A stretch of 64,000 nucleotides of DNA from Sulfolobaceae archaeon (GTDB taxonomy: Archaea; Thermoproteota; Thermoprotei_A; Sulfolobales; Sulfolobaceae). Location of the stretch: positions 62,001 through 126,000 of the forward strand of contig JAPNVD010000005.1 of NCBI GenBank assembly GCA_026627305.1. The letters are read 5' to 3'. Made by a program: the position numbers and the translations under genes. The notes under the pieces were generated by a model that was not told where the DNA came from, made no database searches, and worked only from the letters and a program-made list of their open reading frames with translations. Shown piece by piece: positions 22,122 through 28,462 of the stretch (its first letter is position 1; each line of letters begins with the position of its first letter).

Positions 22122-23288
22122 ATGGAATTAGGTACTGTATTTTTACAGGGTTCTAAGAAAGTACTCCTTTTAGGTTCATCAGGTCTATTAAAGCTTGTTG
22201 GCTTAAAGGCCCACGAGCTCTCTTTAGAGGTCATTAACATAAGCAGTTATGATCTCTCTCCTGCCTCGCAAATAGCCCATAGAAAATACATATCTGACCT
22301 AAATAACATAGAGACTATAGCGAGCCTCATAAAGAGGGAAAGCCCTGAGGTAATTATTGCAGATCTTGAGGAGGTTGATCCTAAGGAAATAATAGAGATA
22401 GAGAACGAGGGTTACAGAATTTATCCTAACTCATCTAGCCTAAAGTTCATAATAGATAAAAACAAGACAAGAGAGTTAGCCCTTAGTTCTACCTCACTTA
22501 AGATACCTAAGTTTACGATAAATGATAAAGCTGATGAAGTGTTTGAGTCCTGTAAAAAACTAGGCTTTCCTTGCGTTTTGAAGCCAAATAGACCTGGAGA
22601 GATGAATACTATTATTGTGAACAACGAAGAGGAACTTAAAGAAGCTATCAAAAAGTTACCACAAACACAGATAATAGCTGAGGAATATATAGCACCAGTA
22701 AAGGAAATAGCGGTCTTCTTCTTTAACTATTTATACAACGGGATAAACACGTTAGTTCTAGACCCAGTGGAATATCAAAGGAAAGGAGAGTACTTCATGG
22801 AAGCATGGATGCCTGCAAATATATCAGGTGAAGAAGTGAAGAAACTTACTAGCGCTACGGAAGAAGTAGCTAAGAATATGAAGACGATAGGAGGCTTCTT
22901 TATAACGTACTTTATAGATAAAAATAACGATATTTATATTAACGATATAAATTACGCACTATCCGAATTAGCCCTAGTAACGGAAGGCGGATATATGTGC
23001 AATGTCTTCGAGCTATTGCTGAGGTCATCATTGGAGTTACCATTGTCCAGTACCAGAACAACTTGTTCTGCTGCAATGCATTTACTAATCTCAACTATCA
23101 ATAAATGGTCACCTACTTACGTTAATATCGATAGGGTTTATTCCATTGAGAACACTCGTTTAATACTTTTTGGAGAGCCAAAGGTCTATGATGGCAAAGC
23201 AATTGGTGCTGTAATATCTACGGATTTAGATCCCAATAAGGCTAGAGAGAAGGCTAGAATAGCAGCCTCGATGTTCTTAATCCTATAA
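22122..23288 (+). CDS. PurT-like ATP-grasp protein with lost metal ligands
   Basis: Resembles formate-dependent GAR transformylase (PurT, purine step 3) along its length: [20 protein letters not shown] (13-32), ASQIAHRKY (48-56), GFPCVLKP (148-155) and a PurK/PurT C-terminal domain. The length (388) matches PurT. But the glycine-rich ATP loop after VLKP reads NRPGEMN instead of the usual SSSGKGQS-type loop, and the two Mg-binding Glu residues (E. coli E267, E279) fall at T262 and N274 by my hand alignment. It may be a non-catalytic paralogue or act on a different substrate. It follows the acyl-CoA synthetase by 36 bases and overlaps the convergent deacetylase-fold gene by 6 bases. Confidence 0.7.
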
Positions 23289-24335
23289 GTTATGTATCTC
23301 CTTTAACCTCTTCACCACATCTTTTACCCTATCCCAAACGAAATTTGAAGAGGTCGTCTTTTCCTGATCATGTAGTACCTCAAATTCGATATCATAAATC
23401 CCCGCTATTTCTGCAGTAGTAATTGCCCATTCTCTAGCTGTAGCGTCATAAGAATACCCACCGCCTCCTGTCATAAGTAGCCTTCCGTTTGAATACTTAT
23501 GAGCTAGATCATGAAGGCTTTTCACTACCTCTAAGTAGCCATGAGTGGAAAGCTTTAGCCCCACTAATGGATCAGTAAAGTGGGAATCACCGCCGTTCAT
23601 TATTACTACTACTTCCGGTTCAAATCTTTTAACGGCAGGAATAACTATCTCATTGAACGCATACAAATACGCATCATCTCCAGTTCCCGGTGGTAATGGT
23701 ATATTAATTGTAAATCCTTTTCCTTTACTCTCCCCTATCTCATCAACGTTACCGCTCCCTGGGAAGAAGTTTCTATGAAACATATGTAGCGATATCTTAA
23801 GGGATTTAGGATCATCACGCAATAACTCCTGAGTCCCATCACCGTGATGACCATCTATATCAACAAGTGCTATCCTATTGAACTTCTCCTCTCCTATTTT
23901 TATCGCTAAGGCTAAATCATTAAAGACACAAAATCCTGAAGCCTTATCTCTCTTTGCATGATGAAACCCACCTCCCAGGTTAATTACATGATTGTATTTC
24001 TCTTCCATCAATAGCCTCATAGCATATACAGTGCCACTAGTTCTAACTAGTGCTCCTTCAAATATCCCTTTAAATGCTGGTGTATCTCCTTCATCTAGCA
24101 AGCCTGAGCCCTTTTCATCCATCCTCTTAACGAACTCTACATACTCTTTATCATGAACTAAGTAAAGCAGTTCCTCTGGTATTAAGGGAGGTTCTAATAT
24201 GTCAATCGTCAGAAATGCACTTCTCTCTTCTAGAAATTTTTTAGCCATGAATTCCCTAATTGATTTAAACGGATGATCTCCTGGAAACGAATATAGGGAA
24301 TATCTATCTGACCATATAAATGCGGTTTTATGCAA
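23283..24335 (-). CDS. Histone-deacetylase-fold (AcuC-like) amidohydrolase
   Basis: A zinc amidohydrolase of the arginase/deacetylase fold, removing acetyl groups from lysines or polyamines. All key residues are present: the His pair in [20 protein letters not shown], zinc ligands in [11 protein letters not shown] (Asp and His) and GGDSHFTDP (Asp), and the catalytic Tyr in GGGGYSY. The length (350) fits the family. It starts at TTG 24335, about 25 bases from a TATA on the minus strand. Possible targets are acetylated chromatin proteins or acetylpolyamines; the neighbouring acyl-CoA synthetase hints at acetate metabolism as for AcuC. Divergent from the CBS gene. Confidence 0.88.
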
Positions 24336-24352
24336 GATCTCTTCTCTATGCT

Positions 24353-24366
24353 AACTTTAATACTAT
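24353..24366. promoter_or_regulatory. Shared TATA element of the deacetylase and CBS genes
   Basis: ACTTTAATACTATT is the main AT-rich element in the divergent gap. It is about 25 bases from the TTG at 24335 on the minus strand and about 28 bases from the ATG at 24387 on the plus strand. One TBP site may therefore drive both genes. Confidence 0.4.
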
Positions 24367-24386
24367 TAAAAATATAAATGATAATG

Positions 24387-25514
24387 ATGAGTGTTAGAGA
24401 ACTAGTTGAAGAACCGGAAATAATTACATCCCCTCAAGATAAGCTAAGTGATATAATAGGAAAGATGAGGGAGAAGAAGCAGTGGGTAATCCCAGTAGTT
24501 AAGGATAAGAAGCTCTATGGGATTTTCTCATATAAGGATTTACTAGCTAGGAGGATATCTCTGGAGACCCGTATTGGAACTTTGATGAGCCCTTCAGTCT
24601 CACTTAGCATAAACGATGATCTTACTAGGATAATTGCTAAGTTCTACACCTCAAATAGTAGGGCAATACCAGTGGTGGATGAGAAAAAGAGATTCCAAGG
24701 TATGATAACAAGAGAAGGATTATTGAAATACTTGTTAGAATCAGGACAAATAGATCCAGCGTGGAAAGTTAGAGAATATATGTCCTCTCCTGCAATAACC
24801 ATTGAAGCAGAAGAAACTGTGGCAAGAGCTAGATGGATAATGACGAGAGATAATATAACCAGATTGCCCGTAATGGAAAACGGAAAGCTAGCAGGGATCA
24901 TTACTACGAAGGATATAGTCGATAAACTGTATTCCTTTAGCGGGAGGAAAAGATCATCAATATTAACTGAAGAGGAGAGGATTGTAGCTATGCCAGTGAA
25001 GGAAATCATGGTTTACCCAGTTATCACTGTAACTGGAGGTATAAGCTTAAAGAACGCTGTAAGTACGTTATTAAATAAAGGGATCTCAGGAATGCCTGTA
25101 GTGGAAGGAGAAAACGTTGTTGGAGTTATAAGCGGTATTGATATCATAAAGGCAGTATCTAAGAAATATGAAATCAGCGTGCCTATAGAAGCAAAGCTGA
25201 CAAGAGACCTTAGAAGCTCCGATACCAAGGCGTTAATAGATGGTATAGTCGAACGTTATATGGGCAAGTTGGAGAAGTTGGTGGATGTAATGTCGTTTAA
25301 AGTATCTTTCAAGGAAGAGGCTAAAAGCCAGGATAAGAAGTACTATAAAGTCACAATAAAGGTTTCAACGAAGCTGGGTAACTTCGTTACAAGGGATAGC
25401 GATTGGGATCCTGCAGTGGCTGTAAAAAGGGCAATAGAAGCTCTAGAGAATAGGCTAAAAAGATATATAAGGAAAGTTGAAGAATCTCAAAAAAGACCGC
25501 CGAAGGAGGAGTAA
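24387..25514 (+). CDS. Four-CBS protein with HPF-like C-terminal domain
   Basis: Four CBS motifs in two Bateman pairs (about 1-115 and 125-260; for example VIPVVKDKKLYGIFSYKDL and GMPVVEGENVVGVISGIDI), which in other proteins bind adenine nucleotides. The C-terminal 105 residues (from LTRDLRSSDTKALI) are mixed alpha/beta with a pattern like ribosome hibernation factors: KYYKVTIKVSTKLGNFVTRD then AVKRAIEALENRLKRYIRK. A CBS-containing ribosome hibernation factor (Dri) is known from Pyrobaculum, as I recall, so this may park ribosomes when energy is low. Start ATG 24387 suits the TATA; ATG 24378 is also in frame. GGAGGAG before the stop serves the nitrilase gene. Confidence 0.8.
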   Translation: MSVRELVEEPEIITSPQDKLSDIIGKMREKKQWVIPVVKDKKLYGIFSYKDLLARRISLETRIGTLMSPSVSLSINDDLTRIIAKFYTSNSRAIPVVDEKKRFQGMITREGLLKYLLESGQIDPAWKVREYMSSPAITIEAEETVARARWIMTRDNITRLPVMENGKLAGIITTKDIVDKLYSFSGRKRSSILTEEERIVAMPVKEIMVYPVITVTGGISLKNAVSTLLNKGISGMPVVEGENVVGVISGIDIIKAVSKKYEISVPIEAKLTRDLRSSDTKALIDGIVERYMGKLEKLVDVMSFKVSFKEEAKSQDKKYYKVTIKVSTKLGNFVTRDSDWDPAVAVKRAIEALENRLKRYIRKVEESQKRPPKEE

Positions 25515-26231
25515 ATGAAAATAGGGATTGTTCAACCGACAAATAAGGAATCAGCAATTAGTTTAACTAAGAAGGCTTTAGATAGTGGAGCCTCTCTAAT
25601 TCTTTTACCTGAGAAATGGGTACAGCACTTAGATGAGGCACCTTTAGAGGAATTTAGAGAATTAGCGAGAAAGTACACTGCAGTAATAATTCCTGGAGCA
25701 TTTGAAGATGGGGTATCAGTTGTTTCACCGATAATATGGACTGATGGAAGCATAAAGGGCATAGCTAAAAAGATCCACTTATTTAAATCTGAAAGAGGAA
25801 GGCTTTTTTCGGGCGATAAGGCAATAATTTTCACATATGGTGGTATAAAATTCGGTATTGAGATCTGTTATGATATAGATTTCCCCGAGGTAACCAGGGC
25901 GTTAGCCCTCAAAGGGGCTGAAGTTATCCTAGTTCCCTCTAAGGTTAAATCAGAGGGAATTGAGATATGGAGAGAATACCTGAAAGTGAGAGTATTAGAG
26001 AACAGGATATCCGTTTTAAACGCAAATGCTTTACAACCCCCTGAATATCCTGGAATGGGTGTAGCTATAATCCCTGAAAAGAAAAACGATTTAATCATAC
26101 CCAAAGTTGTAGGTGAGCTGGCAAATGGTAAAGAGGATTACATGATAGTAGATATAGATCCTTTATTATACCTAAAGATTAGGGAAGATAGGTTAAAAGA
26201 ATACGTAAACTTCGATGTAATTGAGCTCTAA
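25515..26231 (+). CDS. Carbon-nitrogen hydrolase (nitrilase superfamily)
   Basis: A cytosolic amidase-type enzyme. The nitrilase triad is complete: Glu in LILLPEKW (about 35), Lys in AKKIHLF (about 85) and the nucleophile Cys in GIEICYDIDFPE (about 120). The length (238) is on the short side because the N terminus begins directly at MKIGIVQPT. It starts right after the CBS gene stop (TAA-ATG) with GGAGGAG as ribosome site, so it is cotranscribed and coupled. The substrate (omega-amide, N-carbamoyl or other) is unknown. The end overlaps the convergent helicase by 4 bases. Confidence 0.85.
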   Translation: MKIGIVQPTNKESAISLTKKALDSGASLILLPEKWVQHLDEAPLEEFRELARKYTAVIIPGAFEDGVSVVSPIIWTDGSIKGIAKKIHLFKSERGRLFSGDKAIIFTYGGIKFGIEICYDIDFPEVTRALALKGAEVILVPSKVKSEGIEIWREYLKVRVLENRISVLNANALQPPEYPGMGVAIIPEKKNDLIIPKVVGELANGKEDYMIVDIDPLLYLKIREDRLKEYVNFDVIEL

Positions 26232-28462
26232 ACTATTGGCTTACCCCACCTCTCGTTTTCGTTACTCTCCTTGTTAGAATGTATCAGGAAGTCTATTAGC
26301 CTCATTGACTTCTTCCTCGATAGAACCCTATTGTTATTACCACAATAAGGACTATAGATACACTTAGGACATCCATCTTCACAATCACATTTACTCACAA
26401 TATCTAAAGCAACCTCATAAGCATCTTCTAATCTTTCAAACAACTGTTTAGCTACACCACTTCCTCCAATAGCGGAATCGTATATAATCACATGACCGCT
26501 AGGATAACTTATTCCAGCTAAATCAGTTTGTGAAGCCCCTGCAACAACTCTACCCGCTGAGATTAAAACATGTTCAGTAGCATGAAATGCCTCCATTGAA
26601 TCATCAATAGTGAAATCGGGCAGTGATGGATGGGGTATTATAATCCCTTTTGTCCAATAACTAAAACTAATTGGCTCCTCATACATCACCATCCCTCTAT
26701 CTTTTTCCTTCTTTGCGTAAACATCCTTTATGACATAACCGGTGATATAAACAGTTATTAGCATCTCTCCATACTCAGCTTTCATTCCATATACCTCCTT
26801 ATTGGATATAGGTTTGAACTCCAGAAGGTTCACCTCATATAGAGGCTTCGTATAGTAGCTAAGATCATCGTTAACCCTACTAACTCTAACCTCAAGACCT
26901 TGAAGATCTAGCTTTTGAACTTTGTAAGTCCTCTTCGATATTAAATATATAGCATCAGGGTATAAATCATAAAGAGCCTCAGGTAACTGTCTCTCGCCCA
27001 AATTTTGACCACTAGTATCGCGGATCTTGATCGAAGGACCTATACCCCTTATGCTGCTCTTCAAAACGAACTCCCTAGCTTTAACTGTGGGATAAACGTA
27101 TTCGCCACTGATTTTTACAATTCCGTCTTTTTCCAACTCTACCAAAGCTTTTCTATAAACTTCAGGGAAAACACTTAACTGAACTCTCTGCTTTTCTAAA
27201 ACATATGCTGCCGCGTGGACTTTAGCAACCTCAACATTAGTGATATCTAAGGGAAGTGGAATTATTTCCCTATTGAAGAACTCCTGAGGTCTCCTCAAAT
27301 AGTAGGCATCTATCGGATCTGTGCTCAACAAAGTAAACACATAACCTATTTTCCCACCCCTACCAGCCCTACCAGCCCTTTGAAGATATTTCGAATAGCT
27401 AGGAGGTTGTTCAGCCATTATAACGGCATCCAGGCTTCCTATATCTATGCCTAACTCCAAGGTTGGTGTAGCAACAACCCCATCTAATCTTCCGCTTCTT
27501 AACCCCTCTTCAATTTTATGCCTCTCTTTTGCAGGCAACCCTGCCCTGTGAACGGGTAAATCAATACCAAACCTTTCAGCCCTTTTAGCTATTAGCTCAG
27601 CTAATTGCTGAGAATCCACAAAGATCAACGGCTTCAAACCCATCTTCACTAGTACATAAGCTAAGTAAGCTGACAAAACCCATCTACTGCCGCCAGCAGT
27701 ATCTATTAAGGAATGAATTGCTATACCTCTCCTCCTCTTAGTACCCTGAATTACAACCCCATCTTCCCCAAAAAGTTCTTGAAATAGAAATTGTGAAAAG
27801 CCTATGGTCGCACTGGATCCTATAATATTTATATTTCGTTTGAAATCCCTCAACCTATCTATTATCATCCTCAAATGAGCACCTAAGACTCCCTCATACA
27901 CATGAATCTCGTCAAAGACAAGATGATCCACACTTCTTATAAGATCCCTGAACCTCTTGCTTAAAGGTAAGCTTATATGGATCATGTCAGGGTTTGTTAT
28001 GAGTACTTCAGGAGGATTGTCATAGATCTCATCCCTCTCTTCTTTCGGCGTATCTCCATCTAGAACAGCTACTTTAACGCCTATTTCATCAGCAAATGCC
28101 TTTATTCTCGCCAGCTGATCCCTTGCTAACGCCTTAGTGGGGTAAACAAGGACAGATCTTTCACCCTCTAATGCCTTATTTAAAAGGGGTATAAGAAATG
28201 CCTCAGTTTTCCCTGTTCCTGTACCTGAAATGATTATGACGTTTTCGTTTTTAGATATCCTGTTAAAAGCCTCTTCCTGAAATCTATATAACCTCTTTAT
28301 TCCTCTTCTCTTCAATGCTTCTTTTAATTTAAAATTGATAGGCAAATCATCAATTAGCGCCCCGCTTTCTGGCTCTAAAGCTGTCTCAACATAAGTATGA
28401 ATTATCGATGCGTTAAACACCTTTAACTTCTCATTAATTTCACTGAGAAGGTTATCACTCAC
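26228..28462 (-). CDS. DEAD/H helicase, MrfA/Hrq1-like with zinc-binding C terminus
   Basis: A superfamily 2 3'-5' helicase of the MrfA/Hrq1 group, linked in bacteria and fungi to crosslink and mitomycin damage repair. Motif I is ISGTGTGKTEAF (about 79-90), motif II DEIH, motif III GSSATIG, and motif VI QRAGRAGRGG. The family's C-terminal zinc domain (about 600-720) shows C-x-C-x4-C-x2-C in CDCEDGCPKC followed by YCGNNNR, and EHVLIS earlier. The length (744) fits. A 65-residue winged-helix gene lies 32 bases upstream on the same strand and is probably its partner, comparable in position to MrfB in bacteria though not homologous. Confidence 0.85.
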   Translation of the reverse strand: MSDNLLSEINEKLKVFNASIIHTYVETALEPESGALIDDLPINFKLKEALKRRGIKRLYRFQEEAFNRISKNENVIIISGTGTGKTEAFLIPLLNKALEGERSVLVYPTKALARDQLARIKAFADEIGVKVAVLDGDTPKEERDEIYDNPPEVLITNPDMIHISLPLSKRFRDLIRSVDHLVFDEIHVYEGVLGAHLRMIIDRLRDFKRNINIIGSSATIGFSQFLFQELFGEDGVVIQGTKRRRGIAIHSLIDTAGGSRWVLSAYLAYVLVKMGLKPLIFVDSQQLAELIAKRAERFGIDLPVHRAGLPAKERHKIEEGLRSGRLDGVVATPTLELGIDIGSLDAVIMAEQPPSYSKYLQRAGRAGRGGKIGYVFTLLSTDPIDAYYLRRPQEFFNREIIPLPLDITNVEVAKVHAAAYVLEKQRVQLSVFPEVYRKALVELEKDGIVKISGEYVYPTVKAREFVLKSSIRGIGPSIKIRDTSGQNLGERQLPEALYDLYPDAIYLISKRTYKVQKLDLQGLEVRVSRVNDDLSYYTKPLYEVNLLEFKPISNKEVYGMKAEYGEMLITVYITGYVIKDVYAKKEKDRGMVMYEEPISFSYWTKGIIIPHPSLPDFTIDDSMEAFHATEHVLISAGRVVAGASQTDLAGISYPSGHVIIYDSAIGGSGVAKQLFERLEDAYEVALDIVSKCDCEDGCPKCIYSPYCGNNNRVLSRKKSMRLIDFLIHSNKESNENERWGKPIV

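Follow-up and report, generated by a model that had tools for sequence, protein, structure and literature searches.

A Sulfolobaceae protein with four CBS domains and an HPF-like tail: a very probable member of the HibA family of ribosome hibernation factors

HibA is a recently published archaeal family whose members plug idle ribosomes (PMC13324472). As set out in the main text of that report, the combination of four CBS domains and an HPF domain is present in 47% of archaeal genomes, and for the P. abyssi member there are structures, PDB 9SR9 and seven others, 9SR9 being that of HibA with ATP. By cryo-EM the HPF domain is fixed on the 30S subunit and the CBS module is in three positions on the 50S. 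P. abyssi HibA is ribosome-bound, at an abundance like that of ribosomal proteins, and inhibits translation; its isolated CBS part gives no such inhibition, and deletion of hibA in T. barophilus lowers the 70S pool and gives a longer lag. Do nucleotides matter for it? The CBS3/4 site of the P. abyssi protein binds AMP with a Kd of 12 uM as against 113 uM for ATP, but its ribosome-bound states are hardly altered by either, and no nucleotide is visible in the native complexes. Its pull-down partners in Thermococcales include proteins of DNA recombination and replication initiation (PMC13324472).

The DNA considered here, a stretch of 64,000 nt from a Sulfolobaceae genome referred to below as the window, carries a single gene of this architecture. 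Coordinates are those of the window, and residue numbers those of the 378-aa ORF product.

24378..25514, plus strand: probable hibA, 378-aa protein with four CBS domains and a C-terminal HPF/RaiA domain; translation probably from 24384 or 24387
24393..24551, plus strand: CBS1, PF00571 match (G000:C35:86393-86551)
24576..24737, plus strand: CBS2, PF00571 match
24768..24929, plus strand: CBS3, PF00571 match
24930..24995, plus strand: CBS3-CBS4 loop, residues 185-206, in the same place as the 'PTC loop' of P. abyssi HibA
24996..25160, plus strand: CBS4, PF00571 match
25182..25511, plus strand: HPF/RaiA domain, residues 269-378, pI 9.6; Pfam core 25239-25478

An earlier note on this DNA had read the plus-strand ORF 24378-25514 as a protein with four CBS domains, and that reading stands with its exact coordinates, apart from a slight correction of the start, which is placed as listed since alignments with relatives begin at Met3/Met4. 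Pfam finds CBS in four stretches of the protein (E 4.3e-46), and a scan of the whole genome puts four PF00571 matches within the ORF. The same note's proposal of an HPF/YfiA-like beta-alpha tail is borne out both by the predicted fold, described below, and by a match to Ribosomal_S30AE (HPF/RaiA, PF02482) over residues 289-367, E 5.9e-7, 30.6 bits against a cut-off of 23.7, which is the sole S30AE match of the genome at E <= 10. Among the NCBIfam matches listed for the ORF all are sub-threshold. The CBS and HPF/RaiA calls are well beyond chance, and the protein is basic in both halves (pI 9.4 and 9.6).

Which family does it belong to? In a profile search the first PDB match is P. abyssi HibA, 9sr9_H, at E 2.6e-41, with residues 3-369 aligned on 5-379, and the same chain comes first by phmmer (E 1.2e-24) with both parts covered. 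When the C-terminal part is used by itself for a profile search of the PDB, HibA is again first, at 4e-7, with HPF/RaiA chains following from E 0.0016. In the phmmer alignment residues 187-204 lie against the P. abyssi PTC loop, 190-207, the two being of about equal length; in the profile alignment P. abyssi HibA is some 5 residues longer near the putative place of the first of the two archaeal-specific HPF insertions. There is therefore little doubt that ORF 24378-25514 encodes a HibA of Sulfolobales, and the CBS module and HPF-like tail together point by homology to a role in ribosome hibernation. As a protein type it is already known, an ordinary member of the HibA family whose membership is well supported. 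A further PDB chain, 9l96_a, entered as a 406-aa 'CBS domain-containing protein', matches both the CBS and the HPF profiles (C-terminal E 0.0065) and, judged by these matches, is perhaps a second solved HibA.

Predicting the structure and comparing it with HPF, the check that the earlier note had named, gave a clear match of the tail to HPF/RaiA. The full-length AlphaFold2 model, built from 3 sequences and with a mean pLDDT of 80.6, has four CBS units, a CBS3-CBS4 loop with a short helix at 193-204, and a helix-strand-strand-strand-helix at its C-terminal end; the last 111 residues modelled alone (mean pLDDT 76.8) form strand-helix-strand-strand-strand-helix. With that C-terminal model, Foldseek ranks 1-30 are all HPF/RaiA/protein Y (E 2e-4 to 0.014), as are the top 32 VIA-align rows, Z 8.9-13.6, the best being the RaiA 8rd8_D (Z 13.6, rmsd 2.1 A, 101 aligned, 12% identity). 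For the full-length model HibA is not among the first 50 Foldseek rows (library to 2026-04-08), all of which are CBS proteins because the CBS module dominates.

Could the protein instead be a CBS regulator of some other target, for instance proteins of DNA replication or recombination, with its HPF-like tail binding a different RNA? The Thermococcales pull-down partners mentioned above lean that way, as do a helicase gene nearby (26228-28462) and the fact that dsRBDs have the same fold at lower Z. However, the HPF/RaiA rows of the VIA-align comparison stand clearly above the dsRBD rows, the first of which, with Z 8.0, comes next after them, and P. abyssi HibA is on ribosomes at the abundance already noted (PMC13324472, main text), so that a target elsewhere is very improbable. 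For the HibA reading, analogy with P. abyssi and T. barophilus would give the window protein ribosome binding, inhibition of translation and preservation of 70S ribosomes. The four-CBS module would swing over the 50S subunit and cover vacant tRNA sites, the CBS3-CBS4 loop would reach towards the peptidyl-transferase centre, the CBS3/CBS4 cleft would probably bind AMP, ADP or ATP, and idle 70S ribosomes would in this manner be kept together, silent and protected. A search of the literature for Sulfolobales HibA yielded no data on ribosome binding, inhibition or knock-out. SBDS, the companion of HibA in P. abyssi, gave no SBDS_N match in the genome of the window, an assembly that is 79.5% complete.

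The other described factor that comes to mind is Dri of Pyrobaculum calidifontis (PDB 9E6Q, 9E7F), also a CBS-module hibernation factor, and the earlier note had raised the question of whether the window protein is its Sulfolobales counterpart. On that account it would bind both ribosomal subunits via CBS modules and its tail would be incidental. The CBS modules are indeed structurally alike (9e6q_3, Foldseek E 7.6e-17; profile E 2e-22 over 4-258), and each of the two families has a link to hibernation. But Dri has two CBS modules, i.e. eight CBS domains, and is without HPF, whereas the window protein has four CBS domains and a true HPF fold, and the isolated CBS part of P. abyssi HibA was not inhibitory (PMC13324472, main text). 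Distribution speaks to the same point. A HibA match is present in all 31 Sulfolobaceae genomes, in 42 of 147 Sulfolobales genomes (E <= 1e-30) and in 50 of the 197 of a class sample (E <= 1e-40), all of these last in families f1, f2, f3 and f5; the protein of a Sulfolobus sp. record (L050) is 52% identical, and in a control set Sulfolobus acidocaldarius has an S30AE match. PF02482 itself has matches in 45 of the 147 genomes (E <= 0.01), 41 of them in HibA frames and the remaining four (G017, G112, G124, G132) weak; one genome, G092, has HibA and no PF02482 row. With a 634-aa protein of G007 as query, whose best PDB match is Dri 9e6q_3 (E 9.4e-51), Dri-like proteins appear in 43 of the 147 (E <= 1e-30), the long open frames, mostly of 616-737 aa, being in other families of Sulfolobales. 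In five of the 43, all from f7, only the N-terminal half is matched, which leaves five families with long Dri-like matches.

HibA and Dri-like proteins occur together in none of the 147 genomes, Dri-like ones being in 0 of the 42 with HibA. If, among the 11 families, six are counted as having Dri and four as having HibA, a complete lack of overlap has a probability of 0.015, or of about 0.045 with five Dri families; genomes within a family are non-independent and a genome-level Fisher value overstates the exclusion. Since the two were never found together, it is more likely that HibA takes the place of Dri in Sulfolobaceae, with Dri filling the niche in other Sulfolobales families. Identity as the counterpart of Dri is accordingly rejected, on the four CBS domains with an HPF domain and on the mutual exclusion, and is scarcely credible. 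Exclusion between CBS modules had already been reported (PMC13324472, main text), and the pattern here agrees with it while sharpening it within one order. With HibA and Dri swapped between families of a single order, the choice of a CBS-based hibernation factor becomes testable, and HibA is placed in a family with well-studied members. A contig titled 'Euryarchaeota archaeon' (L051) has a HibA locus in Sulfolobaceae-type gene order and is probably from a mislabelled bin.

What of the nucleotide site? The Asp of the T/S-x-x-D motif is, we take it, the ribose contact of CBS domains. In an alignment of 32 HibA proteins, 24 from Sulfolobaceae and 8 from other families, Asp179 of CBS3 is invariant (32/32 rows), as are Ser252 and Asp255 of CBS4; the equivalent position of CBS1 is Asp in 17 of the 32 rows, and position 114 of CBS2, the place of the usual Asp, in 5. 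The invariant pair, Asp179 and Asp255, would fit P. abyssi HibA, for which one nucleotide site is reported, at CBS3/4, and nucleotide sensing by the window protein is plausible. Might AMP at CBS3/4 then directly turn on ribosome binding, with ATP turning it off? The invariant Asp pair, the tighter binding of AMP by the P. abyssi protein, and the solution of another Sulfolobus CBS protein, SSO3205, with AMP favour such a switch, but with AMP and ATP leaving the P. abyssi ribosome states largely unchanged, and the native complexes nucleotide-free (PMC13324472, main text), it is on the unlikely side. In the loop, E199 and E200 are invariant in all 32 rows and K191 in all 24 from Sulfolobaceae; the stretch 186-205 ranks 52 among 359 windows for conservation within Sulfolobaceae and 178 of 359 over all rows, so that, E199/E200 apart, it is well conserved only within that family.

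On either side of hibA are genes for enzymes.

25515..26231, plus strand: CN-hydrolase (nitrilase superfamily) gene, 238 aa, with E33/K86/C118 present
23283..24335, minus strand: HDAC/AcuC-type deacetylase gene, 350 aa, with zinc-site residues present
24336..24377, no strand: divergent intergenic region, 42 bp, common to hibA and the deacetylase gene

The nitrilase-type gene that the earlier note saw beside hibA is real and begins right after its stop: the ATG at 25515, preceded by a GGAGG-type sequence, follows the hibA TAA immediately. In 30 of the 31 Sulfolobaceae genomes a CN hydrolase is the next gene 3' of hibA and has the same orientation, with 2-23 bp between match ends; visual inspection of 15 other loci showed, in every one of them, its TTG start overlapping the hibA stop (TTGA). 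The HDAC-type gene is divergent from hibA in 29 of the 31, with 42-62 bp between matches. E33, K86 and C118, which we take to be the catalytic residues of the CN hydrolase, are kept in 25 of 26 rows; H125, H126, D161, H163, D250 and Y294, presumably the functional residues of the HDAC, are invariant in 25 of 25. No substrate is claimed for the CN hydrolase, as its best NCBIfam scores are far below the cut-offs (nitrile_Arch 62.9 against 500 bits) and its nearest solved relative is the nitrilase 3ivz (E 9.8e-14). Among the 147 Sulfolobales genomes it has no match outside Sulfolobaceae at E <= 1e-25, and neither enzyme gene was found in the HibA surroundings examined from other families, eight short-range loci (L041-L048) and six longer regions (L055-L060). 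We found no description of the hibA-CN hydrolase-deacetylase locus in the literature on Sulfolobus or archaeal hibernation; the main text of PMC13324472, which has no occurrence of 'Sulfolob-', 'amidase', 'nitrilase', 'operon' or 'deacetylase', mentions neither neighbour. The conserved enzyme neighbourhood appears to be a new element, and it gives the search for the missing HibA regulator two named candidates. Two further neighbours may be recorded. An ATP-grasp/PurT-like gene (22122-23288, plus strand) is about 22-35% identical to the same-place gene in relatives, its neighbours being 49-68% identical, and is possibly a diverged paralogue; the gene at 26228-28462 (minus strand), convergent with the CN hydrolase, encodes a DEAD-box helicase with an MrfA-type zinc-binding domain and does not adjoin the CN hydrolase in the relatives examined.

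Do the enzymes act on HibA? In Haloferax, according to PMC12607858, a HibA homologue, HVO_2384, was co-purified with the lysine acetyltransferase Pat2 in its Y154A variant. That result and the deacetylase neighbour make lysine acetylation a reasonable guess, though one of low probability. In Sulfolobaceae the HDAC-type deacetylase, perhaps with the CN hydrolase, might then modify HibA or the ribosome, for which the adjacency, the kept catalytic residues and the TTGA overlap can also be cited. Two genomes are instructive. In G148 hibA and the CN hydrolase are retained with no deacetylase match. In G147 the deacetylase and CN hydrolase flank a degenerate HibA copy (L061:3181-4296), with 84 of 362 aligned residues identical and Asp179 lost, and the CN hydrolase (L061:4293-5003) has lost E33, K86 and C118, while the canonical HibA is elsewhere in the genome (L054:4142-5296, minus strand). 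As one case, G147 points to joint decay of the partners at the locus, which favours a link, and also to HibA being able to do without both enzyme neighbours. Neither G147 nor the other families are compatible with an obligate HibA-nitrilase partnership. With G148, G147 and the inspected loci of other families against it, and synteny alone being no proof of interaction, gating by the enzymes is decidedly unlikely. A more elaborate version, in which the three genes form a module and the divergent deacetylase and translationally coupled CN hydrolase tune hibernation, e.g. by reversible lysine acetylation of HibA, is improbable; K191, on the loop that is predicted to reach into the peptidyl-transferase centre, could be one target, for example. 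If true, ribosome silencing would be gated by acetyl-CoA metabolism, besides or instead of adenylates.

How, finally, does this probable HibA compare with other systems? HVO_2384 of the haloarchaeon Haloferax volcanii, the protein that came down with the Pat2 variant, has tandem CBS domains and a C-terminal hibernation-factor domain according to its authors (PMC12607858). SriA-SriD, on the 70S ribosome of Methanosarcina acetivorans (PDB 9ZNF, 9ZNG, 9ZNI), are by the titles of these entries CBS-module proteins on ribosomes; their chains are of 270-339 aa and absent from the match list of the window HPF-domain profile, and the literature search turned up no relevant paper on them. The genome of the window also has a stand-alone four-CBS protein of 265 aa (L001:1066-1863, G000:C11), whose relatives include MJ1225, SSO3205 and a ribosome-bound chain, 9znf_5; it is a possible second CBS-module hibernation candidate. 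Bacterial HPF/RaiA/protein Y (PF02482) shares its fold with the C-terminal domain, yet the bacterial proteins matched have no CBS module, while the HPF domain of the window protein is CBS-fused. Closest is HibA itself. The P. abyssi protein has 392 aa against 378, sequence identity is low and the loop sequences are not visibly alike, but the alignment is full-length, the loop is alike in place and length, and the P. abyssi and T. barophilus proteins have, like that of the window, four tandem CBS domains, a long CBS3-CBS4 loop and a C-terminal HPF/RaiA domain.
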